Source: Candidatus Omnitrophota bacterium (GTDB taxonomy: Bacteria; Omnitrophota; Gorgyraeia; Zapsychrales; JANLHA01). From it: 42,440 bases of DNA. A program made the position numbers and the translations under genes. The stretch's first letter is position 1. Each line of letters starts with the position of its first letter. The stretch spans positions 1-42,440 of the forward strand of contig JAKQKX010000029.1 of the NCBI GenBank assembly GCA_029560465.1. Reading direction: 5' to 3'. Below the pieces are notes generated by a model. It saw nothing but the letters and a program-made list of their open reading frames with translations. It was not told the origin of the DNA and did not search any database. Shown here piece by piece: positions 24,984 through 40,652 of this stretch.

Positions 24984-25508
24984 ATGATTGAACATGAAAT
25001 GCTGTTCTTGGGCTTGCTCATGGGCGGGCCTAAACACGGTTATGAGATCAAAAGGATTATTGAAGAAGAACTGTATCCTCTCGTCGGGTTGGATATCAAA
25101 TCGATTTATTATCCTTTAAAAAAGATGGAGGAGTTGGACCTGATCACCAAGGATATTGAACGGGAGGGCCGCTGGCCCGAGAAATATGTTTATAAGATCA
25201 CCCTGAAAGGCAAAAAGATATTCAATCATCTTATTACGGAAAGCTTCCTGCTGATCGAGCGGCCCTATTTTAACATAGATTTGTCCCTTTATTTTATCCC
25301 CTACGTAAATCAGAAAATCGCCCGCAGGAAGCTGAAAGCCCGTATTTTTTTCCTGAATCGGATCAAAAAAGGGCTGGAAAAATTTTTAAACCGGAAAAAT
25401 GATTTAACATCCCCGCACCTTAAAATTATCCTGGAACACGATTTGGACCTTGTGGAAGCGGAAATCAAATCTTTCAAAAGGCTGATTGAAACTTTGAATA
25501 GTGCTTGA
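24984..25508 (+). CDS. PadR-family transcriptional regulator
   Basis: This 174-aa regulator's N-terminal winged helix (~1-75) has the PadR layout: 'LFLGLLMGGPKHGYEIKRIIEEEL' followed by 'IKSIYYPLKKMEELDLI' and the wing 'GRWPEKYVYKITLKGKKIF'. The C-terminal half is helical with many Lys/Arg, as in PadR dimerisation arms. PadR proteins usually repress neighbouring genes in response to small aromatic or other molecules. It stands at the head of the salvage/polyketide block, and its stop codon overlaps the -35 box of the next promoter, so control of that promoter is a reasonable guess. Confidence 0.88.
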   Translation: MIEHEMLFLGLLMGGPKHGYEIKRIIEEELYPLVGLDIKSIYYPLKKMEELDLITKDIEREGRWPEKYVYKITLKGKKIFNHLITESFLLIERPYFNIDLSLYFIPYVNQKIARRKLKARIFFLNRIKKGLEKFLNRKNDLTSPHLKIILEHDLDLVEAEIKSFKRLIETLNSA

Positions 25509-25656: not shown

Positions 25657-27195
25657 ATGAATATGCTGAATGTGTTGCATGATAGAGTGAAGGAGCAGGG
25701 AAACAAACCCGCTTTAATTTTTAAAGACCAGGTTATTTCTTTTGCCGATTTGCAAAAACACGTCATCCGCCTGGCTGCGGCTCTCAGAAAACTCGGCATC
25801 GGGCCTTCGGATAAAGTCGCGGTTTTCCTGCCGAATTGCCCGGAATATGTCTTCGGTTATTTATCCTGTTTTTGTTTGGGAGCCGTTGTTGTCCCCTTGG
25901 ACTATATGTTGAAAGAAGATGAATTGATTTCCTGCCTTTCGCATTCAGAGGCTAAGTTGCTTGTGGCTCTCCCCAAGCAGGACGTGTCGCTAGCCGCAAT
26001 TAAAGCTGCTGTCCCGACTTTGGAAACCGTTATCTTTCTGGCGGACGATGCAGCGGCTTTGGATACTGGGGTTCTTTACGGAGATGTTATGGCCGGTGCG
26101 CAGGACGATATCCCGGAGGTGACGGTGCCGGAGGCGGCCCCTGCTTTAATTATGTATACATCGGGGACCACCGGGCGGCCGAAAGGGATTCTTTTGAATT
26201 ACAAGCACCTCGAAGGGTCGCCCAAGGCTATGGAGCATTTCGTGGATTTAAGCGCCCGGGATATTAAGCTTGCGGCATTGCCGTTCAGCCATAGCGCGGG
26301 TTTCATTTACATTCAAAATTGCCTTTTGTTCGGGATAACGCTTGTTATCATGGACCGGTTCAATCCTTACGAGTTTTTAAAAAATGTTGAGCGTTATCGT
26401 GTGACCTGTTTTCATATCGTCCCAGCCATGTATACGGCTTTGCTGACGTTAAAGCAACTGGATAAATTTGACCTGTCTTCTTTGCGATGGGTGGTTGTGT
26501 TCGGCGCTCCCAGCACCCCGGAAATTATGGCCCGTTTTCACCGGCACTGCCCGAATGCGAAACTCCTGAACGGTTGGGGGATGACGGAAACCTGCCCGCC
26601 TAATTCTGTGACACCGTTAGGGAGCACAAATATTGCGAGCGTCGGGAAGCCCTCTCCTTTATGCGAGATCAAGCTGGTTGATGATACCGGGGGGGACGTT
26701 CCGACCGGAGCGGTCGGGGAAATTGTCATCCGGGGCTGGGTTGTCATGGATGAATATTACAAGGACCCTGCCCAGACAGCGCAGATTAAAAAGAACGGGT
26801 GGCTGTATACCGGCGACCTCGGGCGTTTTGATGAGGAAGGTTTTTTATATATTGTTGGACGGAAGAAAGAGATGATCAAGGTGGGCGGGCAGATTGTTTT
26901 CGCCCCGGAGGTCGAGGCCGCTTTTTATAAACATGAGGCGGTTGCCGAAGTGGCTGTCATCGGGGTTCCGGACCCGCTGCGAGGCGAAGCCGTGAAAGCG
27001 TTTGTGGTATTGAAAGACGGCATGGGGGGTACGGAGGAAGAATTGCGTTACTTTGCCCGGCAGCATCTCGCCCATTTTAAGGTTCCGCAGGTGATCGAGC
27101 TGCGGGAACACCTTCCTAAAAATCGGACGGGGAAAATTGATAAAGAATCGCTGGCGGAGGTTAAAAAAGACCCTTGCCAGGTCGATGGACATTGA
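25657..27195 (+). CDS. Acyl-CoA ligase (AMP-binding, ANL family)
   Basis: This 512-aa acyl-activating enzyme has the P-loop 'YTSGTTGRPKG' (167-177), 'GWGMTETCPP' (motif A5 region, ~306-315), 'YTGDLGRFDEEGFLYIVGR' (A7/A8, ~385-403) and the catalytic Lys motif 'PKNRTGKIDK' near the C-terminus (~486-495). It forms an acyl-AMP then an acyl-CoA. Chain specificity cannot be read, but it resembles medium/long-chain or aryl acid ligases. ATG 25657 was preferred because AGGGAGGGG lies just before it; an in-frame TTG at 25597 has no ribosome site. In context it may activate the acid made by the downstream aldehyde dehydrogenase, or a starter or product of the polyketide enzymes. Confidence 0.9.
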   Translation: MNMLNVLHDRVKEQGNKPALIFKDQVISFADLQKHVIRLAAALRKLGIGPSDKVAVFLPNCPEYVFGYLSCFCLGAVVVPLDYMLKEDELISCLSHSEAKLLVALPKQDVSLAAIKAAVPTLETVIFLADDAAALDTGVLYGDVMAGAQDDIPEVTVPEAAPALIMYTSGTTGRPKGILLNYKHLEGSPKAMEHFVDLSARDIKLAALPFSHSAGFIYIQNCLLFGITLVIMDRFNPYEFLKNVERYRVTCFHIVPAMYTALLTLKQLDKFDLSSLRWVVVFGAPSTPEIMARFHRHCPNAKLLNGWGMTETCPPNSVTPLGSTNIASVGKPSPLCEIKLVDDTGGDVPTGAVGEIVIRGWVVMDEYYKDPAQTAQIKKNGWLYTGDLGRFDEEGFLYIVGRKKEMIKVGGQIVFAPEVEAAFYKHEAVAEVAVIGVPDPLRGEAVKAFVVLKDGMGGTEEELRYFARQHLAHFKVPQVIELREHLPKNRTGKIDKESLAEVKKDPCQVDGH

Positions 27196-27247: not shown

Positions 27248-27997
27248 ATGCAAACTATGGTGAAAGACGTCCATATGACAGGCAAAGATTTGATGGGAAT
27301 GGTTCAGCTCCGGCCGGAAGACATCGGGGCTTACGCGCTTGTCCCGGGCCCCCGTGAGCGTATGGAAGCGCTGGTCAAGAAGCTGGAAAATCCCGTCAAG
27401 AATTTTTCTTTTATGGAATACACGATGTATACCGGGCAATATGCGGGGACGAAGGTGACGACGATCAACGGCGGCCGTTTTGCCGCGGACACGGCTATTA
27501 CGACGGAAATCCTGTGCAACGCCCAGGCCGGGACGATGATTCGTATCGGGAGCTGCGGCTCTTTAAGAGAGGATATCAAGGTGGGGGACCTGGTGATCGC
27601 CGATAGCGCCTTGAGAGGGGAGGGGGTGACGCCGTATTATGTGGAAGATAGTTTCCAGACACGGTCTGACCCGGCGCTCACCGCTCAATTCAAAACGGCG
27701 GCAGGCCAGTCCGGGTTGAATGTTCACGTTGGAAAAGTTTGGTCTACCGACGCGATCCTTAAGGAAACCCGCGAGCATGTGGGCCGGGCCGTGGATCAGG
27801 GCGCTGTCGCGGTGGATATGGTGACCTCGGTTTTTTTGACGCTGTGCCAGCTGTATAAGATTCCGGCCACGGTCATCCTGGCGGTCAGCGATAATGTTAT
27901 CACCGGGGAGATGGGATTCATGAACCCGGATTATTACATGGCGGAAGCGGCCATGATAGGAATCTCGCTTAACCTTGTTAAGAACTTGGGACAATAA
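27248..27997 (+). CDS. Nucleoside phosphorylase (PNP/UDP family, NP-I)
   Basis: The 249-aa protein is of the PNP_UDP_1 family. It shows 'LVPGPRERME' (phosphate loop start), 'TMIRIGSCGSL' (phosphate binding, ~96-106), 'AVDMVTSVFLTLC' (in place of the usual 'VEME', so Glu to Asp, with the ribose-contacting Met kept) and 'AVSDN' with the catalytic Asp. It cleaves a nucleoside to base and (deoxy)ribose 1-phosphate. The neighbours MtnA-like isomerase and class II aldolase suggest 5'-methylthioadenosine or 5'-deoxyadenosine as substrate, although by sequence it is nearer to uridine phosphorylases. AAAGGGG precedes the ATG; the next gene follows 4 bp after the stop. Confidence 0.85.
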   Translation: MQTMVKDVHMTGKDLMGMVQLRPEDIGAYALVPGPRERMEALVKKLENPVKNFSFMEYTMYTGQYAGTKVTTINGGRFAADTAITTEILCNAQAGTMIRIGSCGSLREDIKVGDLVIADSALRGEGVTPYYVEDSFQTRSDPALTAQFKTAAGQSGLNVHVGKVWSTDAILKETREHVGRAVDQGAVAVDMVTSVFLTLCQLYKIPATVILAVSDNVITGEMGFMNPDYYMAEAAMIGISLNLVKNLGQ

Positions 27998-28001: not shown

Positions 28002-28967
28002 ATGGACACCCCGCTTTTCTGGCCGGCGCATATTAAGGGACGGGTTCTTTATGTCCTGGATGAAACCCTTATCCCGCAAAAAGTGGTTTATATTAAAATT
28101 AGAACTTCGGCGCAGGCGGTGCGGGTTATCAAGACGATGAAGACCCGGGCTTTCGGGCAGTTTCTCGTGGTCCTCAACACGTTTCTTCTGGAAATTCAGT
28201 TTGCCACCAAGGTCACCGATACGCAATTATTGCGCCGCCTTCAAGCTGCGGCGAAAGCCTTGAACGCGAGCCGCCCAACATTCCCATTCTCGGAAGTGAC
28301 GGGGATCGTGATCCGCTGGGCCGAAGAAGCGCACTGTTCGGGAGGAGACCTTCGCAGCACGGTGCAACGGAATATCCTGGGTTATATGGAAGGAATCAGA
28401 CGGCAGCGGTTGGATCGCGTGGCCCGTCTGGCCGGGTTGATGAGGGATGGCGACAGCATCCTGACGCACTGTAACCTTTCCGGAGAGCTGGCGATGGCCG
28501 CGGCGTTGTGCCGGAGAGAGAAAAGGAAGGTGCAGTTTTTTGTCACCGAAACCCGGCCGTATTTCCAGGGGGCTAAATTGACCTGCTGGGAGCTCAAGCG
28601 GGTGGGCGCAGATGTCACCTTAATCGCGGACAATGCCGTGGCGTCCGTCATGTCTGACGCCCTGGTGAACAAGGTTATTGTTGGGTCGGACCGGAACTGC
28701 GCCAACGGTGATTTCGCCAACAAGATCGGGACATATCAGATGGCCGTGTGTGCCCAGGAATTTCATATTCCGTTTTATGTCCTGACGCAGCCTTCTCAAA
28801 AAGTCAAGACGGGAAACGATATCCCGATTGAAATACGGGACGACAAGGAACTCCTGGTTTTTGCCGGGAAAAGGATTGTCCCGCGTGCCGTTAAAGGTTT
28901 TTATCCGGGATTTGATGTGGTCCCCCACCAGTATATAACGAAAGCGGTTCCGATTCATGTTAAGTAA
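28002..28967 (+). CDS. mtnA: MtnA-like sugar-1-phosphate aldose-ketose isomerase (eIF-2B family)
   Basis: The 321-aa protein matches methylthioribose-1-phosphate isomerase of the eIF-2B superfamily. It has the catalytic 'SILTHCNLSGELA' with Cys157, 'TETRPYFQGAKLTCWELKRVGA', 'VGSDRNCANGDFANKIGTY' with Asp230, and a C-terminal 'YVLTQPSQKVKTG' region. The two catalytic residues correspond to the Cys/Asp pair of characterised MtnA proteins. It isomerises 5-methylthioribose (or 5-deoxyribose) 1-phosphate to the ribulose 1-phosphate. It is slightly shorter than typical (about 345 aa). It overlaps the following half-size paralogue by 11 bp. No mtnW, mtnX or mtnC genes are present, so the classical methionine salvage route is not complete here. 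Confidence 0.87.
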   Translation: MDTPLFWPAHIKGRVLYVLDETLIPQKVVYIKIRTSAQAVRVIKTMKTRAFGQFLVVLNTFLLEIQFATKVTDTQLLRRLQAAAKALNASRPTFPFSEVTGIVIRWAEEAHCSGGDLRSTVQRNILGYMEGIRRQRLDRVARLAGLMRDGDSILTHCNLSGELAMAAALCRREKRKVQFFVTETRPYFQGAKLTCWELKRVGADVTLIADNAVASVMSDALVNKVIVGSDRNCANGDFANKIGTYQMAVCAQEFHIPFYVLTQPSQKVKTGNDIPIEIRDDKELLVFAGKRIVPRAVKGFYPGFDVVPHQYITKAVPIHVK

Positions 28968-29442
28968 GGATCAACGATCTTATATCTTATTACACGGGGT
29001 TCCGGAGCCGGCGCTTTTCGACAAATTCAAGGCCTGTAAGGTCAAGGCGTGCGTTATTCCGGAAGGGCGGCCGGATCTAAAAGCCGCGCAGGTCAATAGC
29101 CGGGCGATGTTGAAAAGGGGAATGGCTCCCGTGTTGATCGCGGATAATATGGCCGGGTTTATGTTGTATCGGTCCATGATCAAAGAGATATGGCTTGCCT
29201 ACCAGGTGGGTGATGATCACGGCGCCCTGTGCGATATCGGTGCTTTGATTTACGCGATTTTGGGGAAGAAACATGGAGTGCCGGTCTATGGTTATCCCGC
29301 GGCGGAGAAACGACGGTTCATCGGGAAGCCTCAAGAAATTTTCTGTTTTTGTCAAAAACGCATAGCGCCCCGCGATATCCACGGGTATGTGCCTCTCTTG
29401 GAATGGGTCCCGGGGACGTATATTAAGAGGATGTATGAATAA
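28957..29442 (+). CDS. Half-size MtnA-like protein lacking the catalytic Cys
   Basis: The 161-aa protein aligns by eye with the C-terminal Rossmann-like domain of the upstream isomerase from the catalytic loop onward: 'YILLHGVPEP' matches 'SILTHCNLSG', 'PEGRPDLKAAQVN' matches 'TETRPYFQGAKLT', 'VLIADNMAGFM' matches 'TLIADNAVASV', and 'YQVGDDHGALCDIGALIY' matches 'VGSDRNCANGDFANKIGTY'. The Cys is replaced by Gly14, while the Asp is kept. The N-terminal MtnA domain is absent. It has intact start and stop, an 11-bp overlap with mtnA and an 8-bp overlap with the aldolase. It is not a frameshift remnant, since the upstream copy is complete. It may be a regulatory or partner subunit. Confidence 0.8.
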   Translation: MLSKDQRSYILLHGVPEPALFDKFKACKVKACVIPEGRPDLKAAQVNSRAMLKRGMAPVLIADNMAGFMLYRSMIKEIWLAYQVGDDHGALCDIGALIYAILGKKHGVPVYGYPAAEKRRFIGKPQEIFCFCQKRIAPRDIHGYVPLLEWVPGTYIKRMYE

Positions 29443-30460
29443 CGAAATTATCCAAATTGTAAAGAAGAATATGATCGCGATCGGCCGTTTGTTATGGGAA
29501 AAGGACCTGGCGACGGCGCTCAACGGGAATATCAGCGCCAGGGTGGATGAGGAGCATATCCTGTTAACCGCCAGCAAAACGTGCCTGGGGCTTCTCAACG
29601 AAAGCGACATCCTGTTGATGCGGCTTGATGGAAAAGTGCTGGATCCCGGGACGATTTCCACCGAGCGGCTTGTGCACAATGAAATCTATAAGGAGTTCCC
29701 GCACATTAAAGCCATCCTGCACAGCCATACGACTTTTGCCAACGCGTATTTTTTGGAACAGGATTGTTTGCAACCGAGGATTCTTGAATCGCGGATTTGT
29801 TTAGGGCAGGTGAAAGCAGTCCCGCAGCAGACCCCGTCAGTCACGGACGTCCAGCCCATTGTGTCCGCCCTGAAAGACAATAATGTTATTGTCTTGAAAA
29901 ATCATGGCGTTGTCGCGATGGGGGAAGACCTTTTTGACTGTTTCCTCCTGATTCAGAGCCTGGAGGAAGCGGTTAAGGTGGAATGTTACAGCCGGCTATT
30001 CAGAATCGGGCTGGGGCAGGAGGCCCGGCTTGAGAACGAGGCCCGCCTTTCAACTCAGGGAGAACCGGGCAGTTCACAAAAGCGGTATGTTATGTTTTCC
30101 AAGGAACATATCGATGAGATTGTTAAAGCCGTTAACGCGGACGAGTCGTTAAGGGGCTTGGGCGAAAAAACCGACATGACCATGGAACTGGCTGTCCGGT
30201 TAAACGAAACCGGACAGGTGTACAGTTTTCAGTTTGAGCGGGGCCGGATTGTGAATGTCGGGCACAACAGCGACGCGGAATTCCTGATTTCGGCCCCGGC
30301 CAAAGTCTGGTCGGCTGTTTTTTGCCGGCAGATCGATCCTTTTGTCGCCACGACTCAAAAAAAGATGCATCTTAAAGGGGATTTCGCGCGTATATCCAGA
30401 TGGTACGCCCCTTGCAGCCGGATTTTTGAACTTTGGCAACAGGTCCCCGTTGAAAGCTAG
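29435..30460 (+). CDS. Class II aldolase fused to a C-terminal SCP2-like domain
   Basis: This 341-aa protein has residues 1-~205 forming a class II (zinc) aldolase/adducin domain. It contains 'LNGNISAR' (~29-36), 'STERLVHNEIY' with the catalytic-type Glu77, 'AILHSHTTFANAY' with zinc ligands His96 and His98, and 'LKNHGVVAMG' with His157. Residues ~220-335 resemble an SCP2 (sterol carrier) domain: 'KTDMTMELAVRL' / 'YSFQFERGRIVNVGHNSDAEFLIS' / 'KKMHLKGDFARISR'. Aldolases of this family cleave deoxyribulose or methylthioribulose 1-phosphate to DHAP plus acetaldehyde or a thio-aldehyde. AAGAGG lies 5' of the ATG; an upstream in-frame start at 29387 runs inside the previous gene and is unlikely. 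The lipid-binding-type fusion is unusual. Confidence 0.83.
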   Translation: MNNEIIQIVKKNMIAIGRLLWEKDLATALNGNISARVDEEHILLTASKTCLGLLNESDILLMRLDGKVLDPGTISTERLVHNEIYKEFPHIKAILHSHTTFANAYFLEQDCLQPRILESRICLGQVKAVPQQTPSVTDVQPIVSALKDNNVIVLKNHGVVAMGEDLFDCFLLIQSLEEAVKVECYSRLFRIGLGQEARLENEARLSTQGEPGSSQKRYVMFSKEHIDEIVKAVNADESLRGLGEKTDMTMELAVRLNETGQVYSFQFERGRIVNVGHNSDAEFLISAPAKVWSAVFCRQIDPFVATTQKKMHLKGDFARISRWYAPCSRIFELWQQVPVES

Positions 30461-30471
30461 GAATTATTTTG

Positions 30472-31959
30472 ATGGAAAAATATGATTTATATATCGGAGG
30501 CGCTGTCCGGCCGGCTCGGCCGCAGCGTTATTTCGAGAGTATCAATCCGGCGGTGGGTGCGCCTTTTGCCCTGGTCGCGGACGCGTCCGTGGACGACATG
30601 AGGGAAGCGGTGGCACGCGCCCGGGACAGCTATGAAGCCAGGTCTTGGGCCGGGTTGCCCGTCAAGGAGAGGGGCCTGGTTTTGTCGCGGGTGGCTCAGG
30701 CAATCCGGGAAAACGCCAAACGGTTAGCCGAGCTTGAGAGTCTTGATACCGGGAAAACTATCAAACAAACGACGTTTATCGACGTCCCGTCCTGCGCGGA
30801 CACCTTTGAGTATTTTTCCGGGGCGGGTGATCTTTTGAAAGGGAAACTTAATCCTGTTCCGGCTCCGGTGCGAAGCGTTACGGAACGGGAACCCTTGGGG
30901 GTTGTGGCCTGTCTGATCCCTTGGAATTATCCCCTTATCATGTTTGCCTGGAAAGCCGCTCCGGCTCTTTTGGCCGGGAACTCCGTCGTTTTTAAACCGT
31001 CGCAGCACGCCAGTGTGTCGCTGTTATATCTGGCGGCGCTCATCCGTGACCTGGGTCTTCCTGACGGCGTTTTGAATATCGTTGCGAGTTCGCGGCATGA
31101 GGTGGCCCAGGACCTGATTGAAAGCCCGGATGTGCGGATGATCAGCTTTACCGGCGGCACGGAAACTGGACGAGACGTCATGGCCCGGGCCGCCCGGACG
31201 ACTAAAAAAGTGAGCCTGGAGCTGGGAGGGAAATCCCCGAATATTGTTTTTGGCGATTGTGATATGGACGCGGCCATCGGGGGAACTCTGTCGGCTATTT
31301 TTATGAACCAGGGGCAGATGTGCACGGCCGGGTCTCGGTTGCTGCTGGAAGATACGATATACGAAGAATTTTTAGCCAGGCTTGAAGAGAAAACCCGTGG
31401 GTTAAAGATTGGCAACAGCATAAATTATGATACCGATTTCGGCCCGCTTATCAGCGAAGGGCACCGGGCCCAAGTGCTTTCTTGTATTCAGAAAGGGCTT
31501 GCCCAGGGCGCCCGGCTGGTTTGCGGCGGGAAAATTCCTCCAGGGCTGCCTTCGGATATTCAAAAAGGTTTTTATCTGGAGCCAACAATTTTTGCCGATG
31601 TCGATAATACGATGACGGTCGCCCGGGAAGAGATTTTCGGCCCAGTGTTGGCGGTGATTAAATTTTCTGGCCTGGACCACGCCGTGAGCCTGGCCAATGA
31701 CTCCCCGTATGGCCTGGCGTCGTGTGTGTGGACGAAAAGCATTAATAAGGCCAGCCAGGTGTCCAGCCGGTTGCAATGCGGGATCGTGTGGGTAAACACG
31801 TACGGGGGGTTTTATAATGAGGCCCCGTTTGGGGGGTATAAGCAGAGCGGGGTCGGACGGGAGTTGGGGGAGGAGGGTCTTTTGGAATATACTCAATCGA
31901 AACATGTTTGTGTCGATGTCACTCCCGGCGGCCGGTCGTTGGTCACGAGTTGGTTTTGA
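30472..31959 (+). CDS. NAD(P)-dependent aldehyde dehydrogenase
   Basis: This 495-aa ALDH is of the betaine/aldehyde dehydrogenase type. Markers are 'NYPLIMFAWKAAPALLAGNSVVFKPS' region (cofactor), 'FTGGTETGRDVM', 'LELGGKSPN' with general base Glu250, 'NQGQMCTAGSR' with nucleophile Cys284 and 'EEIFGPVLAVIKF'. It oxidises an aldehyde to the acid. In this operon the natural substrate would be the aldehyde released by the upstream aldolase, and the acid could go to the acyl-CoA ligase. It is 11 bp after the aldolase stop and is the last gene of the salvage half. The start is ATG 30472; a TTG one codon upstream is in frame but needless. Confidence 0.92.
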   Translation: MEKYDLYIGGAVRPARPQRYFESINPAVGAPFALVADASVDDMREAVARARDSYEARSWAGLPVKERGLVLSRVAQAIRENAKRLAELESLDTGKTIKQTTFIDVPSCADTFEYFSGAGDLLKGKLNPVPAPVRSVTEREPLGVVACLIPWNYPLIMFAWKAAPALLAGNSVVFKPSQHASVSLLYLAALIRDLGLPDGVLNIVASSRHEVAQDLIESPDVRMISFTGGTETGRDVMARAARTTKKVSLELGGKSPNIVFGDCDMDAAIGGTLSAIFMNQGQMCTAGSRLLLEDTIYEEFLARLEEKTRGLKIGNSINYDTDFGPLISEGHRAQVLSCIQKGLAQGARLVCGGKIPPGLPSDIQKGFYLEPTIFADVDNTMTVAREEIFGPVLAVIKFSGLDHAVSLANDSPYGLASCVWTKSINKASQVSSRLQCGIVWVNTYGGFYNEAPFGGYKQSGVGRELGEEGLLEYTQSKHVCVDVTPGGRSLVTSWF

Positions 31960-31990
31960 CTGAAGAGCGTAAGGAGCGCGGCCGTTTTTC

Positions 31991-32019: not shown

Positions 32020-32194
32020 AAAGTGAATTTCCGTTTCAGGAAGACGTGTGTTCAGGCGGATCGGTTTTGGTTTTTTCGAAAAGAAGAGCCGCTTGCCAGG
32101 CAGGGCAAAGGCGTTGCCCGGTGAGGCGGGCGCACGGTTAATCCTTAAAGGCGCGGCTTTCGCCGCTGAAGCCCCGAGGAGAGGATGGTGTCGT

Positions 32195-32482
32195 ATGGCT
32201 GATCAACAGCCTCAGATGGCTTGGGAAAAAAACGCATTGATAAAATATGAGAACATGATCCGGCGGCTTCCGTTATTTCATCGGGACATCGCCGATGAGG
32301 TCGTGCGGAAAAAAGCGATGCAGAACGCTTTGGCCCGGCGGGGAGCGATGATTGAAGAAAGCGATATCCTTCGCGCTTTCTTTTCTGAAGTGCCCATGAC
32401 GTTTTACGGGCTTATGATCCGTCTTCTTGAAGAAACTGGATTTGATTACGGCCCGTATGATCCGGGGCATCATAAATCCTGA
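32195..32482 (+). CDS. Small PCP_red-like helical protein
   Basis: This 95-aa protein has a conserved-looking core 'WEKNALIKYENMIRRLPLFHRDIADEVVRKKAMQNALARRGAMIEESDILRAF', which resembles the small PCP_red domain found at the C-terminus of protochlorophyllide reductase ChlB and in stand-alone proteins ('iP..vR..a....E..A...G...I'). ATG 32195 has AGGAGAGG upstream; an in-frame GTG at 32048 would add a low-complexity leader and is not supported. The function is unknown. It opens the polyketide half and is followed 30 bp later by an SRPBCC gene with a good Shine-Dalgarno. Confidence 0.6.
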   Translation: MADQQPQMAWEKNALIKYENMIRRLPLFHRDIADEVVRKKAMQNALARRGAMIEESDILRAFFSEVPMTFYGLMIRLLEETGFDYGPYDPGHHKS

Positions 32483-32512: not shown

Positions 32513-33007
32513 ATGTTATTTCATAAGAACAAAACGCCTGTTCCCCCAAAGGGCCTGAAGCTTATCCAGCTTTTCACTTTCGTTGAAATCCCGGTCGGCC
32601 AGATAGCGGACGGGGCGCTGCATTGGGGGGAGGCGGACTGGTGGCCCGGGTCCGGTCTTCTTGAGTATTCCAAAACGACGGGCGGGGACGCGGGCTTAGG
32701 CACGCGGTACCGTTTCAAACTTGACGGGTTTCTCGCCCCCGCCGGTGCTTCCGAAGTCACGCAGTATGAGCCACGTCAGGTCATGGAGAGGACTTTCCGC
32801 GGGGGATTTTTTGCCGGATATGAGCTCCTGCAGATCAGTGAACGGGCCAACGGCACGCGCGTTGATTATGAAATGCATTACCGGGTGGTGGGATTTGTTC
32901 AGACCCTGTTATGGAATTTGTTTTATAAAAAGAAGTATGTCCGCGCTATAGAGTTGTTGCTGGATGCGTTAAAGCAGCATATCGTGAAACATTATTATCA
33001 TGCTTAA
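32513..33007 (+). CDS. SRPBCC (START-like) protein, possible polyketide cyclase/dehydrase
   Basis: The 164-aa protein follows the START/SRPBCC pattern: an N-terminal strand 'KLIQLFTFVEIPVGQIADGALHW', 'GLGTRYRFKLDG', 'YEPRQVMERTFRGGFFAGYELLQIS', 'GTRVDYEMHYRVVGFVQTLLWNLF' and a C-terminal helix 'YVRAIELLLDALKQHI'. Members bind hydrophobic ligands in a deep cavity and include polyketide cyclases. It differs from the TcmN-like gene at 37986. The ATG follows AAGGAGA. Between a helical protein and a reductase in the polyketide half, a role in folding the chain is plausible, but simple ligand binding cannot be excluded. Confidence 0.75.
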   Translation: MLFHKNKTPVPPKGLKLIQLFTFVEIPVGQIADGALHWGEADWWPGSGLLEYSKTTGGDAGLGTRYRFKLDGFLAPAGASEVTQYEPRQVMERTFRGGFFAGYELLQISERANGTRVDYEMHYRVVGFVQTLLWNLFYKKKYVRAIELLLDALKQHIVKHYYHA

Positions 33008-33022: not shown

Positions 33023-34021
33023 ATGATGGAAATTGCGGTTATCGGGGCCGGGGCCATCGGGTCGGTCGTCGCCGGCCTTCTCACGAAAACCGGCGAGAAT
33101 GTCCTTCTCGTGGGGCGGCCGGCTCAGGTTAAGGCTATCCGGGACAAAGGGCTCGCCATCAAGACGTCCAATGGACAGGAGACTGTTCCTGTTCGGGTGG
33201 CTGAACGCCTGGATCGGGCCTATGACCTCGTTATTTTTACCGTAAAAAGCCAGGATTTGGAGCAGGCCTATCAGGATAATATGGCTTACCTGGAGCATGG
33301 GCGCGTTTTAACGACCCAGAATGGCGTCCAGGGAGACAATCTTTTAAGCACGCACTTTGAGCCGGGAAATATGTACAGCAGTATTGTGATGTTCGGGGCC
33401 ACGTATATGCAGTCCGGCCAAGTCGTTTTAAATTTTCCAGGAGACTGGATCCTGGGGAAGCCTTACACCCCGCTGGATAACGTGATTGAAGACATAGCCG
33501 GGATCCTGAGGAAAGCTTTTCCGGTGACGGTGACCCCGTTCATCCTGGGGATGAAATGGCTGAAGCTTTTTATTAATTTTAATAATAGCATCCCCGCGTG
33601 CCTGAACCGCTCGATGCAGGAAACGTTCGCTGACCTTGATTTTTGCCGGCTGAGCATTTTGCTCTTGAACGAGGGCTTGCAGGTTGTCCGGTCGGCGGGA
33701 ATAGAGATGGTGTCGCTGCCGAGTTTCCCGGTGGAAAGGATATTGGGGATCGCCGGGATGCCGATAGAAACGGCCGCCGGCATTATGCAGAAGACGTTAA
33801 CCGGCTTAAGCCGGGAGCCTTTATACGGGTCGATTTTACAAAGCATCAAAAGGGGGAAGCCCAGTGAAATAGATTTTATTAACGGGGAAGTAGACCTCTT
33901 GGCTGCCAGTCTTCGGATGAACGCCCCTTTAAACCGGAAAATCGTGGCGTTGGTGCACCGGGTTGAAAACACCGGAGTATTCTTTTCCCCAGCGCAGCTT
34001 AAGGCGGAATTTGGATTGTAA
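33023..34021 (+). CDS. Ketopantoate reductase-like protein (ApbA/PanE family)
   Basis: The 332-aa NAD(P)-dependent reductase starts with the Rossmann 'AVIGAGAIGSVVAGLL' (~5-20), then 'DLVIFTVKSQDLEQAY' (~68-83), 'TTQNGVQGDNLL' (~94-105) and the family's catalytic Lys/Asn region 'GMKWLKLFINFNNSIPACL' (~174-192). True PanE makes pantoate for CoA; here the setting suggests a tailoring reductase acting on a polyketide keto group. If it is a real PanE it could instead support phosphopantetheine supply for the ACP. Two tandem Met codons start the gene. The 147-bp gap after it contains no supported gene. Confidence 0.82.
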   Translation: MMEIAVIGAGAIGSVVAGLLTKTGENVLLVGRPAQVKAIRDKGLAIKTSNGQETVPVRVAERLDRAYDLVIFTVKSQDLEQAYQDNMAYLEHGRVLTTQNGVQGDNLLSTHFEPGNMYSSIVMFGATYMQSGQVVLNFPGDWILGKPYTPLDNVIEDIAGILRKAFPVTVTPFILGMKWLKLFINFNNSIPACLNRSMQETFADLDFCRLSILLLNEGLQVVRSAGIEMVSLPSFPVERILGIAGMPIETAAGIMQKTLTGLSREPLYGSILQSIKRGKPSEIDFINGEVDLLAASLRMNAPLNRKIVALVHRVENTGVFFSPAQLKAEFGL

Positions 34022-34168: not shown

Positions 34169-35428
34169 ATGTCCAGACGTGTTGTCGTGACGGGGGTCGG
34201 GGTGATTGCCCCCAATGGTATCGGTAATGAAGAATGTTTCAATGCGATGGTCAACGGCGTTTCCGGCGTCCAGCGGGTTACTGAATTTGACGTGTCGCAA
34301 TTTAATACAAAGATCGCCGCTCAGGTCCGCCGCTTTGATCCCATTGCCTTGGGGTTGACCCGGCAGGAGGCGATCCGCATGGACCGGTATGTCCAGTTCG
34401 CGGTCGTCGCCGCCCGTATGGCCTGGGAAGATGCCGGCCTGGATTCGGCGCGGCTCGACAAGGAACGCATGGGCGTATCCCTGGCCAACGCGATTTGCGG
34501 GACCAAATATATGGAAGAGGAATTCGCCCTTGTGACGGACAGCGGGAAGAACCCGATTGACCCGTCTCTGGTCCGCCAGGATTTATACGATGCGGCGATG
34601 TTCAACACCCCGTCCAGTGAAATCACGGCCCGCTATGGTCTTAAGGGCATCTGCAATACGATCTCAACCGGATGCACGGCGGGGACCGATTCGGTCGGAT
34701 TCTCTTATGAGGCGATTCAGGCCGGAGAGGCGGACCTCATGGTCACGGGAGCCAGTGAGGCGCCGATCACGCCGATCACGCTGGGGGCTTTCGATTGCGT
34801 CAATGTGTTGTCTGCCAGCAACGAGGAGCCGGAAAAAGCCTCCCGTCCTTTTGATAGTAAACGCAACGGCTTTGTCATTTCGGAAGGGGCGGGCCTGCTG
34901 GTCGTTGAGGAGCTTGGGCATGCTTTAAAACGCGGGGCGCGGATTTACTGTGAGATTATCGGGTACGGGACGACGAACAATGCTTACCACATGACGGATC
35001 TTCCTCCAGAAGGTGATGCCATGGCCGACAGCATCGTGCTGGCCCTCAAGAGTGCGGGCGTCAGGCCGGATGAGATCGATTATATCAACGCCCACGGGTC
35101 GTCGACCCGCCAGAATGATGTGTTTGAAACCAATGCGTACAAGATGGCCCTGGGGGAGGCTGTTTACCGCATCCCCATCAGTTCTTTGAAATCCATGATC
35201 GGTCATCCCCTGGCCGGGGCGAACGGCGTGGAACTGGCGCTCGGCGCCATGATGTTCGAACGGAATATCCTCCCGCCGACGATCAATCAGGAGTTCCCGG
35301 ACCCCGAATGCGATCTGGATTATATCCCCAACAAGGCTCGGGAGAAAAAAGTCAATATCATGCTCAAAACAAGCAGCGGTTTTTCCGGGATCCATTCATC
35401 AATGGTCTTAAAAAGATTTCATTCCTAA
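34169..35428 (+). CDS. Type II polyketide ketosynthase alpha (KS-alpha)
   Basis: This 419-aa beta-ketoacyl synthase performs decarboxylative condensation of malonyl-ACP. The catalytic set is complete: Cys169 in 'ISTGCTAGTDSVGF', His309 in 'INAHGSSTRQND', Lys341 and His346 in 'LKSMIGHPLAGANG'. The 'GCTAGTDSVG' and 'AHGS.T.QND..ET' wording is closer to KS-alpha of aromatic type II systems ('GCTSGLD..G') than to FabF. AGAGGA precedes the ATG. A second ketosynthase with lost catalytic residues follows, then an ACP, the minimal PKS order KS-CLF-ACP. An ordinary FabF or an aryl-polyene KS is the alternative, less likely given the CLF and TcmN-like cyclase nearby. Confidence 0.88.
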   Translation: MSRRVVVTGVGVIAPNGIGNEECFNAMVNGVSGVQRVTEFDVSQFNTKIAAQVRRFDPIALGLTRQEAIRMDRYVQFAVVAARMAWEDAGLDSARLDKERMGVSLANAICGTKYMEEEFALVTDSGKNPIDPSLVRQDLYDAAMFNTPSSEITARYGLKGICNTISTGCTAGTDSVGFSYEAIQAGEADLMVTGASEAPITPITLGAFDCVNVLSASNEEPEKASRPFDSKRNGFVISEGAGLLVVEELGHALKRGARIYCEIIGYGTTNNAYHMTDLPPEGDAMADSIVLALKSAGVRPDEIDYINAHGSSTRQNDVFETNAYKMALGEAVYRIPISSLKSMIGHPLAGANGVELALGAMMFERNILPPTINQEFPDPECDLDYIPNKAREKKVNIMLKTSSGFSGIHSSMVLKRFHS

Positions 35429-35440
35429 AGGGGGAAAAGA

Positions 35441-35566: not shown

Positions 35567-36808
35567 ATGCAAAGAATTGCCATAACTGGAATGGGAATTG
35601 TCAGCCCGAGCGGCCTTGATAAGAGGAAGTTCTGGGCTAACATCAAGAGCGGGCGTTCTGAGGTTAAAATCATTGACCGGTTTGACGCGTCAAGATACCC
35701 GTCGCATGTCGCCGGACAGGTCCGTGAATTAGATGCCTACAGCAAAGTCTCCTCAAGGCTGTTAAAGAAGATTGACCTGTTCGCCCACATGGCCCTGGTG
35801 GCCTCCGAACTGGCGATTGAGGACGCCTGTATTGACATGAAAAGTGAGAACCTGAAACGTGCTGGTATTTTTATGGGCAACGCGATCGGCGGCTGGTTAT
35901 ACGCGGAAACTGAATTGCGCGACCTGTATATCGAAGGGCGGGAGGGGGTCAGTCCGTTCATGGCCTCCGCTTGGTTCCCGGCCGCCCCGCAAGGGCAGAT
36001 TTCAATTCATTACGGGATTAAAGGCTACAGTAAGACTATCGTCGCGGACCGGGCCAGTTCGCTGATGGCCATCGCCTATGGCGCCAAGAATCTCACGCGT
36101 GGCCATAATGACTTTGTCCTCGCCGGGGGGATGGAAGCCCCGGTGACGCCGTATGCGCTTTTGTGCTGCAACACATCAGGGATGCTGACGCGGAATAATG
36201 CGCAGGCCAGGACCGCCTACAGGCCGTTCGACAGAAACCGTGACGGGTATGCCATCGCGGAGGGGGCGGGGTGCCTTATCCTCGAGCCGCCGGCCCGGGC
36301 TAGGAAGCGCCAAGCCCAAGTTTCGGGCTATATCGCGGGTTTCGGGACCACGACAGACGGGGTTGACCGGATTCATCCCGCGGACGACGGGGTTCAGTTG
36401 GCGCGGGCGATTCGTCTGGCGTTGGATGACGCCGGATGCGGCCCGGAGGCCATTGATTATATTTGCGCGGACGGCTCTGCCACGGACCTGGGGGACCGCA
36501 CGGAAACCATGGCGATCAAACAGGTTTTCGGGGCCCACGCGTATAAGATCCCGGTGACGGCCCCGAAATCGGTTTTCGGCAATATGCTGGGCGCCTCGGG
36601 CGCTTTGGATGTCATAACGGTGCTGTTGGCGATGGAGCATAACATCATTCCTCCCACGATTAATTACCAGACTCCGGACCCGGAATGTGACCTGGACTAT
36701 TGCCCGAATGAAAGTCAAAACCAAGAAATTAACAGGGCGCTGGTCGTTAATCGAGGCCGGGGTGGTATCAATGCCGCGTTGGTTTTGGAAAAAAACTTTA
36801 TAATGTAA
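35567..36808 (+). CDS. Chain length factor (KS-beta), catalytically inactive ketosynthase
   Basis: This 413-aa thiolase-fold protein is homologous to the preceding KS-alpha over its whole length. Aligned with it, the nucleophile Cys position is Arg162 ('IVADRASSLM'), the first His is Asp302 ('ICADGSATDL'), the second His is Asn339 ('KSVFGNMLGASG'), while the Lys (334) is kept. Chain length factors of aromatic type II systems likewise lack the Cys and His residues and dimerise with KS-alpha to set chain length; they usually have Gln at the Cys site, so Arg here is unusual. The frame is intact and the ACP follows 12 bp later, so this is not a decayed gene. Confidence 0.87.
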   Translation: MQRIAITGMGIVSPSGLDKRKFWANIKSGRSEVKIIDRFDASRYPSHVAGQVRELDAYSKVSSRLLKKIDLFAHMALVASELAIEDACIDMKSENLKRAGIFMGNAIGGWLYAETELRDLYIEGREGVSPFMASAWFPAAPQGQISIHYGIKGYSKTIVADRASSLMAIAYGAKNLTRGHNDFVLAGGMEAPVTPYALLCCNTSGMLTRNNAQARTAYRPFDRNRDGYAIAEGAGCLILEPPARARKRQAQVSGYIAGFGTTTDGVDRIHPADDGVQLARAIRLALDDAGCGPEAIDYICADGSATDLGDRTETMAIKQVFGAHAYKIPVTAPKSVFGNMLGASGALDVITVLLAMEHNIIPPTINYQTPDPECDLDYCPNESQNQEINRALVVNRGRGGINAALVLEKNFIM

Positions 36809-36820
36809 GGAGGATTTGCC

Positions 36821-37057
36821 GTGGATGTGGAAGCGAAAATCAAGAAAATTTTTCAACGTGTCTTAGACGTGGCCCCGGATGACATTAAGCCGGATGAATC
36901 CCTCGTGTCGTCCCTGGGGGTGGACTCCACGGAGCTGGTGGAAATAACCGTCGGGATCAAAAAGGAGCTCAACGCCCTTTTAACGGACGGGGAGTTGAAG
37001 AAGACCCACACTTTTAACGAAATTGTGGAAATTGTTAAGTCCAAAGTTTCGCCGTAG
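36821..37057 (+). CDS. Acyl carrier protein of the polyketide synthase
   Basis: The 78-aa acidic helical protein has the phosphopantetheine attachment motif 'LGVDSTELVEI', with Ser at about residue 37. The helix I region 'IKKIFQRVLDVAPDDIKPDESLV' and a C-terminal helix 'TFNEIVEIVKSKV' complete the fold. The start is GTG at 36821, set by AAGGAGG at 36808-36814. After the modification the Ser carries the growing chain for KS-CLF. It lies 12 bp after the CLF. It is distinct from fatty-acid AcpP, which has 'DSLDTVEL'; here it reads D-S-T. Confidence 0.92.
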   Translation: MDVEAKIKKIFQRVLDVAPDDIKPDESLVSSLGVDSTELVEITVGIKKELNALLTDGELKKTHTFNEIVEIVKSKVSP

Positions 37058-37120
37058 AAATTCTTTTGAATTTCGGGCGCGGGGCATCGTTTCGCGAGAT
37101 GCCGGTTGAAAGGGAGAGGT

Positions 37121-37921
37121 ATGATTATTGATTTGAGTTTGCCGATCGATGACACATTGCAGGAAACCCATGCCGCAACCATCGAGCGCATCAGCCATGC
37201 GGACGGCGTGGATCATTTTAATTGGGTGGTGATGAAAAACCGGCCTGGAGGGGAGAAAGAATACTCGGCCGGAAAGCGCGTTGTTTCCGCCGCGGAAGTC
37301 CCTGACGGGGAAATGTTGTCCCTGGAGATTGTCCATGCTTCCGTTCATATGGGCTCGCACGTGGATGCCCCGTTTCATTACGGGAGCCGCTGTCAAGGCC
37401 GGCCTGCCCGCATGATTGAAGATGTCCCGTTGGAATGGTGTTTCGGGGACGGGGTGATTTTGGATTTCACGCATTTTCATTATCCGGATGTCATCCGGAA
37501 GCCCGATGTCGAGGACGCGCTGAGGAAAATCCCTTATACGTTGAAGCCCATGGACATTGTCCTTATATACACCGGCGGAGATGCGATGTTGGGGACGCCT
37601 GATTATGTGAATAAATACGTCGGCATGATGCCTGATGCCGTTGAGTTTATTTTAGACCAGGGCGTTAAGATGCTGGGTATCGACACGATCGGCCTGGACC
37701 GGCCTTGTTTTGAAATGTTCCGGGAATTTTTAAGCACGAAAGACAAGTCGAAAATCTGGCCGTCGCATTTTCTCGGCCGCCGGAGAGAATTTTGCCATAT
37801 GGAACGGCTTGGAAATCTGGGCGCTGTCCCGCACGCCGTCGGCTTTAAGGTGGCATGCTTTCCGGTGCGGATTAAAAATGCCGGGGCTGGATGGGCGAGG
37901 GTTGTGGCTATCCTTGATTAA
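37121..37921 (+). CDS. Cyclase family protein (PF04199, kynurenine formamidase-like fold)
   Basis: The 266-aa protein carries the metal-binding signature 'ASVHMGSHVDAPFHY' (H-x-G-[ST]-H-x-D-x-P-x-H) typical of the cyclase/arylformamidase family, followed by 'DIVLIYTG' and 'VKMLGIDTIGLDRP'. Family members hydrolyse N-formylkynurenine or act as polyketide cyclases and lactone-type hydrolases. ATG 37121 has AAAGGGAGAGG upstream; an in-frame upstream GTG at 37106 is not better placed. In the polyketide setting it could catalyse a ring closure or release the finished chain by hydrolysis. The metal is probably zinc or manganese. Confidence 0.83.
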   Translation: MIIDLSLPIDDTLQETHAATIERISHADGVDHFNWVVMKNRPGGEKEYSAGKRVVSAAEVPDGEMLSLEIVHASVHMGSHVDAPFHYGSRCQGRPARMIEDVPLEWCFGDGVILDFTHFHYPDVIRKPDVEDALRKIPYTLKPMDIVLIYTGGDAMLGTPDYVNKYVGMMPDAVEFILDQGVKMLGIDTIGLDRPCFEMFREFLSTKDKSKIWPSHFLGRRREFCHMERLGNLGAVPHAVGFKVACFPVRIKNAGAGWARVVAILD

Positions 37922-37929
37922 AATTAAGA

Positions 37930-37952
37930 CCCCGGGTTTTTTAGCCCCGGGG
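37930..37952 (+). other. GC-rich hairpin with U-rich loop between cyclase genes
   Basis: CCCCGGG (37930-37936) can pair with CCCGGGG (37946-37952) across a 9-nt loop TTTTTTAGC. There is no T-tract after the stem, so a classical terminator is unlikely; a processing or stability element between the cyclase and aromatase messages is possible. Confidence 0.4.
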
Positions 37953-37985
37953 AGGGGGCAGGAATAAACTGAAGGAGGGAACACG

Positions 37986-38447
37986 ATGGGACATACAAGG
38001 AATTCTATTTTTATTAATGCTCCGTACGGAGTGGTTTTTGATATTTCCAACCATATCGAGAGGTGGACGGAACTTTTCGGCGATGAATATGTGAAGGCCG
38101 AGACACTGGAAAGAAACGGTCACGAGATTACCTTTCGCCTTACGGATGATGAAAATAAATCCTGGGTTTCCAAGCGCTGGCTCCATAAAGAACAGTATTA
38201 CGCGTTTGCCTCCCGCCATGACCCGCTGTTCCCCTTTAAATACATGAAAATTATATGGTTGTATCATGTGACACCAGAGGGGACCCTGATGACCTGGATT
38301 CAGGATTTTGAAATGGATCCTAAATTTACCGCATATACTGAAGAGCAGATTGAGGGGTTTATTAACGAACATTCCCGCCAGAATATGAAAATTTTTAAAG
38401 AAGTTATTGAAAAAGAAGCCCGGGAAGTGGCCTCACATCACGCATAA
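37986..38447 (+). CDS. Aromatase/cyclase, TcmN N-terminal type (SRPBCC)
   Basis: This 153-aa protein strongly resembles the mono-domain aromatase/cyclases of aromatic type II polyketide systems such as the TcmN N-terminal domain and WhiE/ZhuI types. It has 'NSIFINAPYGVVFDISNHIERWTELF', 'AETLERNGHEITFRL', 'SWVSKRW', 'YMKIIWLYHVTPEGTLMTWIQDFEM' and 'INEHSRQNMKIFKEVIE'. These proteins hold the poly-beta-ketone on the ACP in a deep pocket and direct first-ring closure and aromatisation. AAGGAGGG precedes the ATG by the correct distance. It is the single best indicator that the KS/CLF pair makes an aromatic product rather than a fatty acid. Confidence 0.9.
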   Translation: MGHTRNSIFINAPYGVVFDISNHIERWTELFGDEYVKAETLERNGHEITFRLTDDENKSWVSKRWLHKEQYYAFASRHDPLFPFKYMKIIWLYHVTPEGTLMTWIQDFEMDPKFTAYTEEQIEGFINEHSRQNMKIFKEVIEKEAREVASHHA

Positions 38448-38485
38448 GCAAAAAACAGGAAAAAATTCTTACATTTTTTATGGTT

Positions 38486-38521
38486 TTTTGATACTAATAT
38501 TATTATGGTATAATAATATTA
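38486..38521 (+). promoter_or_regulatory. Promoter with long palindrome upstream of the exporter
   Basis: TTTTGA (38486-38491), 17-bp spacer and perfect TATAAT (38509-38514); a TTGATA at 38488-38493 gives a 15-bp spacing. Over the -10 box lies a perfect inverted repeat, TAATATTATTAT (38495-38506) and ATAATAATATTA (38510-38521), 12-bp arms with a 3-bp centre. The overlap with the -10 fits a repressor operator for the MFS gene, such as one lifted when the product accumulates. The whole 38448-38556 region is strongly AT-rich. Confidence 0.6.
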
Positions 38522-38556
38522 ATATAAAAAATCTTATATTTTTTTTATACTTTCTT

Positions 38557-39720
38557 ATGCGTGAATTATTCGGTAAAAAAGTCGTTAATGAAGAAATTGT
38601 AATTTACTTTTTGCTGTGTTGCGGATGTTTTACAATATCATTTAATGTCGCAGCGATCGTGGCCGCTGTTCCGGCTATTAGTGCGGATTTGAGGGTTTCC
38701 GACATTCTTGTTTCGGATATTATTCCCTATTATATGATTCCGTATGGCTTCGGGGCGTTATTATACGCCCCGTTAACACAATGCCGGTCGTATAAATATA
38801 TTTCGGGCGTGTCCTTGTTGTTATACGCTTTGGCGTGTTTTTACTGCGCGTCTGTTTCGGCCTTGCCCCAATTGTTGGCGGGCCGGCTGGTCATGGGGGT
38901 CGCTGGCGCAAGCGTGATTCCTTTAGGGCTGATGATCATCGGCCAGCTTTTTGACAAGAATGTCCGTGGACGCTTGGTGGGGTTGTTTTTCAGCTGCAGC
39001 TTCCTGGCCTCCATCGCGGGGCTTATTTTGAGCGGGACGGTGAATTGGCGTTGGCTTTTTTTTGTCCCGGCTTTGATCGGGGCCGTGACAGCCGCGTTTG
39101 TTTTATTCCTGCCCTTGAAATCTTTTAGCCATGTCCGTGGGGGGGGCAGGATCAAGTATGGGAACGCGCTCAAGCAGCACCATATCCAAAAAGTGTTCTT
39201 TTTTATTATGGTCATCAGTTTCTTGTACCATGCCGTGCACACGTGGTTTGGCGTGTATTTGGCGCGTCGCTACCACCTGAACCAGATGGCCATCAGCTCT
39301 TTGTTATTAATTCCCCTGCTGACCGGGGCGGTGGGGCAGGTGGCAGGGGGATACCTGTCTGATAAAAAAGACCGGGCGACCGCCTGCGCGGTCGGGCTGT
39401 TGATTTTGTCTTGTTCAACGCTTTTATTGTCTGGGCGATATCCTCTGTGGGGGGTGGGGTTGGTCTTAGGGGGTGTTGCTTTCGGCTGGACCATAGGGCA
39501 TAATGGGATGTCAACGGTCTTGACGGATTTCCCGGAGGCATACCGCTCGGAGATCGCGAGCTTGAACTCGTCTTTACGTTTTATTAGTGGCGGAGTCGGG
39601 TTTAAAATCAGCAGAATTTTTATTGAGCGCGGGATGAGCTTTGAAATGAATTTCCTGATAATGGGGCTAGGTATGCTGGTTTCCGGGCTGTTTTTAAGAA
39701 CCCTTGTCCTGGATGAATGA
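38557..39720 (+). CDS. MFS transporter (probable product exporter)
   Basis: The 387-aa major facilitator has about 12 predicted membrane helices. The conserved loop 'GRLVMGVAGASVIPLGLMIIGQLFDKNVRGRLVGLFF' corresponds to motif B/A-like drug:H+ antiporter signatures, and 'SDKKDRAT' in the second half matches motif A. I start at ATG 38557, after a TATACT at 38546-38551, because the upstream frame (to 38407) overlaps the aromatase gene and encodes a poor leader. There is no Shine-Dalgarno. Its place in the polyketide locus and its own promoter suggest export of the product or self-resistance, though substrate cannot be read from sequence. Confidence 0.87.
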   Translation: MRELFGKKVVNEEIVIYFLLCCGCFTISFNVAAIVAAVPAISADLRVSDILVSDIIPYYMIPYGFGALLYAPLTQCRSYKYISGVSLLLYALACFYCASVSALPQLLAGRLVMGVAGASVIPLGLMIIGQLFDKNVRGRLVGLFFSCSFLASIAGLILSGTVNWRWLFFVPALIGAVTAAFVLFLPLKSFSHVRGGGRIKYGNALKQHHIQKVFFFIMVISFLYHAVHTWFGVYLARRYHLNQMAISSLLLIPLLTGAVGQVAGGYLSDKKDRATACAVGLLILSCSTLLLSGRYPLWGVGLVLGGVAFGWTIGHNGMSTVLTDFPEAYRSEIASLNSSLRFISGGVGFKISRIFIERGMSFEMNFLIMGLGMLVSGLFLRTLVLDE

Positions 39721-39804
39721 GGCGGGCGGTTCCCGTGGCCCGAACTTGGGTGAAAATAATGAAATGTGTTTTAGTGTCCTGTTGTTTTACAGAAAGGGAA
39801 GAAA

Positions 39805-40575
39805 ATGAATTTGAAGGGTAAAAACGCCGTTATTACCGGTGCCAGCAAAGGCATTGGGAAAGCGATTGCTTTAAAGCTGGCTGAGCAGGGGGTTAATGTC
39901 ATGCTGGCCGCCAGAACCCGGGAGACTTTGGCGGAGGCCACCGCCGAAATCCAGGGAAAAACTAAAGTGAAAGTCTTCGGTGTCCCCACGGATGTCAGCC
40001 AGCTTGGCGATTTGCAGAATCTTGTGAACAAAGCATTTGAAGAATTTAAAACTATAGATATCCTGATCAATAACGCTGGCGTCTCCAGCCAATACCCGTT
40101 CGATAAGCAGCCGTTGGAGGACATTGAACGCTTAGCCCACACGAATTATCTCGGCTATGTGCGCTTAATCCGCCTGGTGATCCCGCATATGATTGAGCGG
40201 AAACAGGGGGCTATTATTAACATGGTGAGTGGGTCGACGCTGTGTGACCCGTTGCCCAAAAATTTTCTCACCTACAGTTCTTTAAAAGTCGGCCTGCGGG
40301 CTTTTTTGAAAGGCCTTTTCTGGGAAATGAGGGATCATGGCATTAAGGTGACGTCAATTTTGCCGGGGGTGGTCGATACGGAACTGACCGGTAAATTGCA
40401 GGATATCGCTGTCCAACAAAAAGCCCGGCTCATGTCTGCCGAGACCGTTGTGGATATGGTGATGTTCGCGCTATCGGTTCCTCAGAATGCGTGCCCTGTG
40501 GAGTTGGCCGTGATCAACCAGCAGACGCCATGGACCAAACCGGTGATTGATTATGTCCAGGAACAGGCCCAATAA
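39805..40575 (+). CDS. Short-chain dehydrogenase/reductase, possible polyketide ketoreductase
   Basis: The 256-aa classical SDR has cofactor motif 'TGASKGIG' (~11-18), 'NNAG' (~89-92) and the catalytic Ser ('VSGST') plus 'YSSLK' (Tyr-x-x-x-Lys, ~155-159). The NADP(H) preference is suggested by 'AARTRE' after beta-2. In type II systems an enzyme of this family reduces one keto group (often C-9) before cyclisation, so this is a good ketoreductase candidate. AAAGGGAAG precedes the ATG. It is separated by 84 bp from the exporter gene. Confidence 0.9.
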   Translation: MNLKGKNAVITGASKGIGKAIALKLAEQGVNVMLAARTRETLAEATAEIQGKTKVKVFGVPTDVSQLGDLQNLVNKAFEEFKTIDILINNAGVSSQYPFDKQPLEDIERLAHTNYLGYVRLIRLVIPHMIERKQGAIINMVSGSTLCDPLPKNFLTYSSLKVGLRAFLKGLFWEMRDHGIKVTSILPGVVDTELTGKLQDIAVQQKARLMSAETVVDMVMFALSVPQNACPVELAVINQQTPWTKPVIDYVQEQAQ

Positions 40576-40652
40576 AAGGAATGAGCATGGCGGCAATGTG
40601 AGTAGGGCGCTTCATGATGGACGTGGGAAGAGGAGGAAGGGGGGTGACATGA

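Follow-up and report, generated by a model that had tools for sequence, protein, structure and literature searches.

Class II aldolases of the DrdA/Ald2 type act in 5-deoxyribose disposal (the DHAP shunt), where they lie beside an MtnA-type isomerase, and acetaldehyde is the product proposed for them in the accessible text of PMC6079011. The aldehyde released by this shunt varies with the substrate, according to the available part of PMC12632272. In the fluoroacetate pathway of Streptomyces cattleya and Nocardia, a phosphorylase, an isomerase, an aldolase and an aldehyde dehydrogenase convert a 5'-substituted deoxyadenosine to X-CH2-COOH; there X is fluorine, the aldolase gene is unsettled, and the accessible sections of the source mention neither an SCP2 domain nor a radical SAM enzyme (PMC3999930). 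In hopanoid synthesis, the radical SAM enzyme HpnH attaches a 5'-deoxyadenosyl group to a lipid and a putative phosphorylase, HpnG, then removes adenine, but no sugar cleavage is mentioned in the available text (PMC12583986). SCP2-like domains are carried by enzymes of greasy substrates such as the alkylsulfatases SdsA1 and Pisa1 and eukaryotic MFE-2, which are among the fold matches of the C-terminal domain described below. SCPx likewise combines an SCP2 domain with an enzyme that handles greasy substrates. The catalytic domains of all these proteins are nevertheless different from the one studied here, and the closest solved fold, the SCP2 protein of Thermus thermophilus (TT1886, 2cx7/1wfr), stands alone. 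Both domains are thus familiar, as is the three-step handling of the sugar.

The window analysed here is a stretch of 42,440 nucleotides from a Candidatus Omnitrophota bacterium (contig JAKQKX010000029.1 of assembly GCA_029560465.1). It encodes a class II aldolase fused to an SCP2 domain, and the isomerase with a phosphorylase or kinase as neighbours that marks the DHAP shunt was found here as well. The genes and domains are as follows.

24984..25508, + strand: PadR-type regulator (Pfam)
25657..27195, + strand: AMP-forming acyl-CoA ligase, with its best profile scores to long-chain fatty acid ligases
27248..27997, + strand: nucleoside phosphorylase (PNP_UDP_1; Pfam and NCBIfam profiles)
28002..28967, + strand: MtnA-like aldose-ketose isomerase (Pfam IF-2B)
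28957..29442, + strand: short MtnA/IF-2B paralogue of 161 aa (Pfam IF-2B, 23.6 bits), kept in fusion loci
29435..30460, + strand: aldolase-SCP2 fusion gene, 341 aa (Pfam and predicted structure)
29435..30019, + strand: class II aldolase domain of the fusion, residues 1-195, with E77, H96, H98 and H157 (Pfam, VIA, invariant residues)
30089..30457, + strand: SCP2 domain of the fusion, residues 219-341 (Pfam, isolated-domain model, fold matches)
30469..31959, + strand: aldehyde dehydrogenase, immediately 3' of the fusion (Pfam and NCBIfam profiles)
32048..32482, + strand: small protein with weak DUF2621 similarity, under the Pfam cut-off
32513..33007, + strand: SRPBCC/polyketide cyclase-like protein, under the Pfam cut-off
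33023..34021, + strand: ketopantoate-reductase-like protein (Pfam)
34169..35428, + strand: ketosynthase with the active-site Cys (profile; Cys read in the translation)
35567..36808, + strand: ketosynthase-like protein without that Cys, chain-length-factor-like (profile; translation)
36821..37057, + strand: acyl carrier protein (profile)
37106..41977, + strand: genes for a PF04199 cyclase and for SRPBCC, MFS, SDR and amidohydrolase proteins, all part of the conserved cluster (profiles; relatives)

The fusion gene's start and the stop of the gene before it overlap, and homologues support this start. In Pfam searches of the protein, Aldolase_II covered residues 12-183 (E 8.3e-37, 127 bits against a curated cut-off of 22.2) and SCP2 (PF02036) residues 252-317 (E 9.4e-5, 23.1 bits against a curated cut-off of 21.3). 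Across an alignment of 46 homologues that includes the window's own protein, Aldolase_II was matched in all 46 sequences and SCP2 in 43 (E <= 0.01). A full-length AlphaFold2 model, built on a 26-sequence alignment, has two ordered domains (pLDDT 89.2) and a weak linker at residues 201-212. Mean pairwise identity among 26 aligned proteins was 64% for residues 219-341, 53.5% for residues 8-190 and 18.6% for the linker, so the SCP2 half is the more conserved of the two domains in this set.

A sequence-only reading had recognized a class II aldolase with zinc-site and Glu motifs in the N-terminal part, and both the Aldolase_II match and the alignment bear this out. A catalytic Glu and metal-binding residues are general features of class II aldolases. 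Residues E77, H96, H98 and H157 are unchanged in 46 of 46 sequences and align with the catalytic Glu and metal ligands of 4c24, roles that the accessible text of PMC6079011 also describes; judging by these residues, the catalytic site of the aldolase is intact. VIA matched the aldolase half, at Z 25-26, to the fuculose-phosphate aldolases of Thermus and E. coli and to the deoxyribose-salvage aldolase of Bacillus thuringiensis (6btd/6btg). The earlier remark that known aldolases end near residue 215 holds for the close single-domain PDB relatives, which are 200-222 residues long; the 6btd chain has 222 residues compared to 341 here, and DrdA/Ald2 differs from the fusion in lacking SCP2 and in its gene company. 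Two other identities were tried and rejected: MtnB dehydratase (TIGR03328; 60.4 bits against a cut-off of 137) and the plain L-fuculose-phosphate aldolase equivalogs of NCBIfam, for which scores were below cut-offs (e.g., 98.6 against 250 bits).

Structure searches with the full-length model returned only aldolase-superfamily chains among the matches listed. Because the aldolase domain filled that list, the C-terminal part was modelled alone. The last 128 residues then gave a pLDDT of 95.2 and aligned with Thermus SCP2 2cx7 at Z 17.5, with an rmsd of 1.8 A over 118 residues, followed by the related 1wfr at Z 15.5 and by a next group at about 10. Foldseek retrieved 1wfr at E 1.9e-9, and a sequence profile of the domain placed 1wfr and 2cx7 on top, although weakly (E 0.003). 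This part of the protein is thus predicted to be ordered and to be a genuine SCP2 fold, which may bind a hydrophobic ligand, although fold similarity by itself is no proof of function. The proposal of an SCP2-like fold at about residues 220-335 was therefore sound in kind and in bounds (the fold spans about 219-341), with the Pfam match above its curated cut-off, the isolated-domain model and the structure matches in agreement. A chance SCP2 match is ruled out by conservation in 43 of 46 sequences together with the fold match. No second SCP2 domain was found in the window genome besides that of the fusion.

Nor is the fusion an isolated oddity. A fusion profile matched 155 of 384 sampled Omnitrophota genomes at E <= 1e-40, a total in which certain aldolase-only genes are counted, and a profile scan of further contigs added one fusion locus, also from Omnitrophota. 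Among 92 genomes, including that of the window, 57 carry the fusion (54 whole, three cut by contig ends), six encode an aldolase that lacks SCP2, and the other 29 contain neither form. The distribution of homologues indicates that the fusion is an ancient conserved trait within Omnitrophota. Its companions follow it closely. The nucleoside phosphorylase was detected in 53 of 57 fusion genomes, in none of the six aldolase-only genomes and in three of the 29 with neither; the counts for the cluster-type ketosynthase were the same (53/57, 0/6 and 3/29), and those for the cluster-type radical SAM protein were 53/57, 0/6 and 2/29. Fisher values for these co-occurrences were below 1e-16, as computed with shared ancestry ignored and on a set in which many of the 92 genomes are incomplete. 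The exceptions amount to four of the 57 fusion genomes for each of phosphorylase, ketosynthase and radical SAM, and one of them, G090, has the core genes and lacks the cluster-type ketosynthase.

When a tree of the aldolase domain was rooted with an outgroup, the six short proteins nested among the fusion proteins. Bootstrap values were 94 for a 62-tip clade, 91 for a 41-tip clade and 80 for a group of five short proteins with one fusion group; the deeper and intermediate nodes around the aldolase-only branches are weak (57-72). No SCP2 remnant was detectable in the six aldolase-only loci. From this nesting and the lack of a remnant, it looks as if the fusion were ancestral and SCP2 had been dropped with loss of the pathway. 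Since the domain was lost where the pathway was lost while the aldolase stayed, SCP2 appears to be tied to the substrate of the pathway and not to aldol chemistry as such.

The gene order of the window (PadR regulator, ligase, phosphorylase, isomerase, paralogue, fusion and aldehyde dehydrogenase, followed by polyketide-type genes) recurs in relatives. When 41 loci and the window were clustered, 36 had the fusion and six the aldolase alone. In this set of 42, MtnA-type and aldehyde dehydrogenase genes were each found 36 times and KS/CLF genes 33 times, and 30 loci had a B12-radical-SAM gene. The 161-residue paralogue matches only the C-terminal half of MtnA and sits between isomerase and aldolase in most loci of the order; it is perhaps a non-catalytic partner subunit. 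The genes at 34169-37057 (ketosynthase with Cys, Cys-less partner and acyl carrier protein) make up a KS-CLF-type system, and each of the two ketosynthase genes mostly shows 60-80% identity between the loci compared. KS-CLF pairs are mentioned for Candidatus Omnitrophica in the accessible text of PMC10132072, and ladderane-type cluster calls for Omnitrophota in that of PMC9902471. A tandem phosphorylase pair was seen at L038:6353-7883 and at L043:7051-8586.

The B12-radical-SAM gene of the relatives usually lies between the aldehyde dehydrogenase and the DUF2621-like gene. Two members, from L055 and L080, scored best against BchE and HpnJ, under the cut-offs of both. Unlike most relatives, the window has no B12-radical-SAM gene in that interval (31959-32048), and the same gap, despite contiguous sequence, occurs in four fusion loci in total (the window, L049, L064 and L054). 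The genomes of all four (G000, G011, G036 and G079) carry a radical SAM homologue on another contig. In the window genome, the nearest homologue is at L080:10239-11702 on the minus strand and adjoins a small regulator, which by eye is TetR-like.

Twenty more distant loci, one per genome and hand-picked from the 384-genome search for family spread and long contigs (several stretches end early), carried an MtnA label in 18, an aldehyde dehydrogenase in 18 and a radical SAM gene in 16. Five of them (L127, L130, L133, L136 and L137) have, in or near the phosphorylase slot and before MtnA, a gene that by eye is aminotransferase IV-like; that of L130 lies at L130:7690-8499. The family phosphorylases of these five genomes are located elsewhere, and the phosphorylase-isomerase link is therefore not universal. 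In four of the 20 (L125, L127, L130 and L138), the fusion gene has behind it a pair of genes encoding an LsrF-type thiolase and a zinc dehydrogenase. Family scores were obtained with the L130 pair (L130:10956-12791), and the other loci were assigned by similarity to it; L039 and L050 have the pair too, upstream of their clusters. LsrF converts a phosphorylated substrate to DHAP and acetyl-CoA, according to the available text of PMC7828210. By chemical reasoning, oxidation of 5-deoxyribulose-1-phosphate at C4 would give the dione on which LsrF acts, which suggests that the pair could provide a second route from this kind of ketose phosphate to an acyl-CoA. Genes for an MMPL-family transporter, a LolA-like protein and a DUF1302 protein come after the core genes at L055:3314-7973 and also in L124, L128, L133 and L136, and they look like lipid export.

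The cluster phosphorylase and the MtnA-like isomerase both fall under the curated MtnP and MtnA cut-offs. The isomerase (28002-28967) reaches 208 bits against TIGR00512, below the cut-off of 279, and retains the Cys and Asp; the phosphorylase scored 46.7 bits with the HpnG profile, whose cut-off is 187.1. With hopanoids considered as a possible substrate, HpnH matches were found in none of the 92 genomes, in a search run without a positive control. The window genome also has an MtnP and an MtnA apart from the cluster, both above curated cut-offs, with the separate MtnA on contig 40 at 384 bits to TIGR00512, so the cluster does not obviously serve to salvage plain 5'-deoxyadenosine. The cluster ligase scored 459 bits against the long-chain fatty acid ligase subfamily compared to 273 against acetate-CoA ligase. 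Taken with the separate MtnP and MtnA, its long-chain type leads us to infer that the aldehyde is more likely bulky and greasy than acetaldehyde, although the broad substrate range of the dehydrogenase and ligase families would also suit an acetaldehyde route.

The function that we favour, at about even confidence, is that the fusion aldolase splits a hydrophobic 5-substituted 5-deoxyribulose-1-phosphate into DHAP and a hydrophobic aldehyde, which the SCP2 domain holds and passes to the dehydrogenase. The phosphorylase and the MtnA-like isomerase would convert a 5'-substituted 5'-deoxyadenosine to that ketose phosphate, and its cleavage would be a metal-dependent class II reaction. SCP2 would bind the hydrophobic part of substrate or product, keep the aldehyde in solution and pass it on to the dehydrogenase encoded next door; the acid formed would be activated by the CoA ligase for lipid or polyketide assembly. 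Each reaction step is read from protein families, while the hydrophobic substituent and the hand-off are suggested by context. Such a domain would be a sensible holder for a greasy aldehyde. The earlier idea that the true substrate is larger or greasier than a deoxy sugar is thus upheld in part: it gains indirect support from the conserved fusion and the loss of SCP2 alongside the cluster, and also from the adjoining fatty-acyl-type ligase, the separate MtnP and MtnA, and the MMPL/LolA/DUF1302 genes of some relatives.

The order of phosphorylase, isomerase and aldolase is the same as in the 5-deoxyribose pathway (accessible text of PMC6079011), a radical SAM gene is near in most loci, and the aldolase half matches the DrdA fold (6btd/6btg) at Z 25. 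These points would also fit a DHAP-shunt-like local disposal of the plain 5'-deoxyadenosine that the radical SAM enzyme of the cluster releases, with an aldolase yielding DHAP and acetaldehyde, subsequent conversion to acetate and acetyl-CoA, and an SCP2 domain that merely docks the enzyme to a lipid-bearing complex. We regard this as possible but rather doubtful, given the MtnP and MtnA apart from the cluster and a ligase that is not acetate-like; it also leaves unexplained the higher conservation of SCP2 and its loss where the aldolase alone stays.

The aldolase might instead work in synthesis: it would condense DHAP with a hydrophobic aldehyde presented by SCP2 to give a lipid-tailed ketose phosphate, which MtnA and the phosphorylase would turn into a lipid nucleoside. 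Aldol formation is favoured thermodynamically and DrdA takes several aldehydes, as stated in the available part of PMC6079011; however, the aldehyde dehydrogenase, present in 36 loci of the 42-sequence set (36 fusions) and in 18 of the 20 distant loci, would consume the aldehyde, and the LsrF pair of some loci points to cleavage, which makes synthesis in this sense unlikely. More improbable still is that SCP2 is a protein-protein or scaffold module whose lipid binding has been lost, on an aldolase acting on an unrelated small sugar phosphate. Some enzymes, the Eis acetyltransferases among them, do contain SCP2-like folds, but the best structural match is an SCP2 protein that stands alone, at Z 17.5 against about 6 for Eis.

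The favoured cleavage of a hydrophobic ketose phosphate can be extended, tentatively, to the origin of that substrate. The B12-radical-SAM enzyme might link a hydrophobic precursor with the 5'-deoxyadenosyl group from SAM. The phosphorylase, isomerase and aldolase-SCP2 protein would then trim the nucleoside of this adduct to two carbons, C4' and C5' of the ribose. The aldehyde dehydrogenase and CoA ligase, or the dehydrogenase and LsrF-type thiolase in some relatives, would yield R-CH2-CO-CoA. The net result would be a carboxymethylation, a chain extension of a new kind, and R-CH2-CO-CoA could prime the KS-CLF polyketide system.

No description of the fusion, of its conservation across the phylum or of the link to radical SAM and polyketide genes was found in literature titles and abstracts, among which subscription journals are thinly covered. 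If the extended proposal is true, a large phylum without cultured members would use the ribose of SAM as a two-carbon unit for building lipids. Enzymes of the salvage type would then serve synthesis, and fusion to SCP2 would mark the substrate as hydrophobic. The more modest reading, cleavage to DHAP and a hydrophobic aldehyde, still offers a function that can be tested for this conserved cluster.
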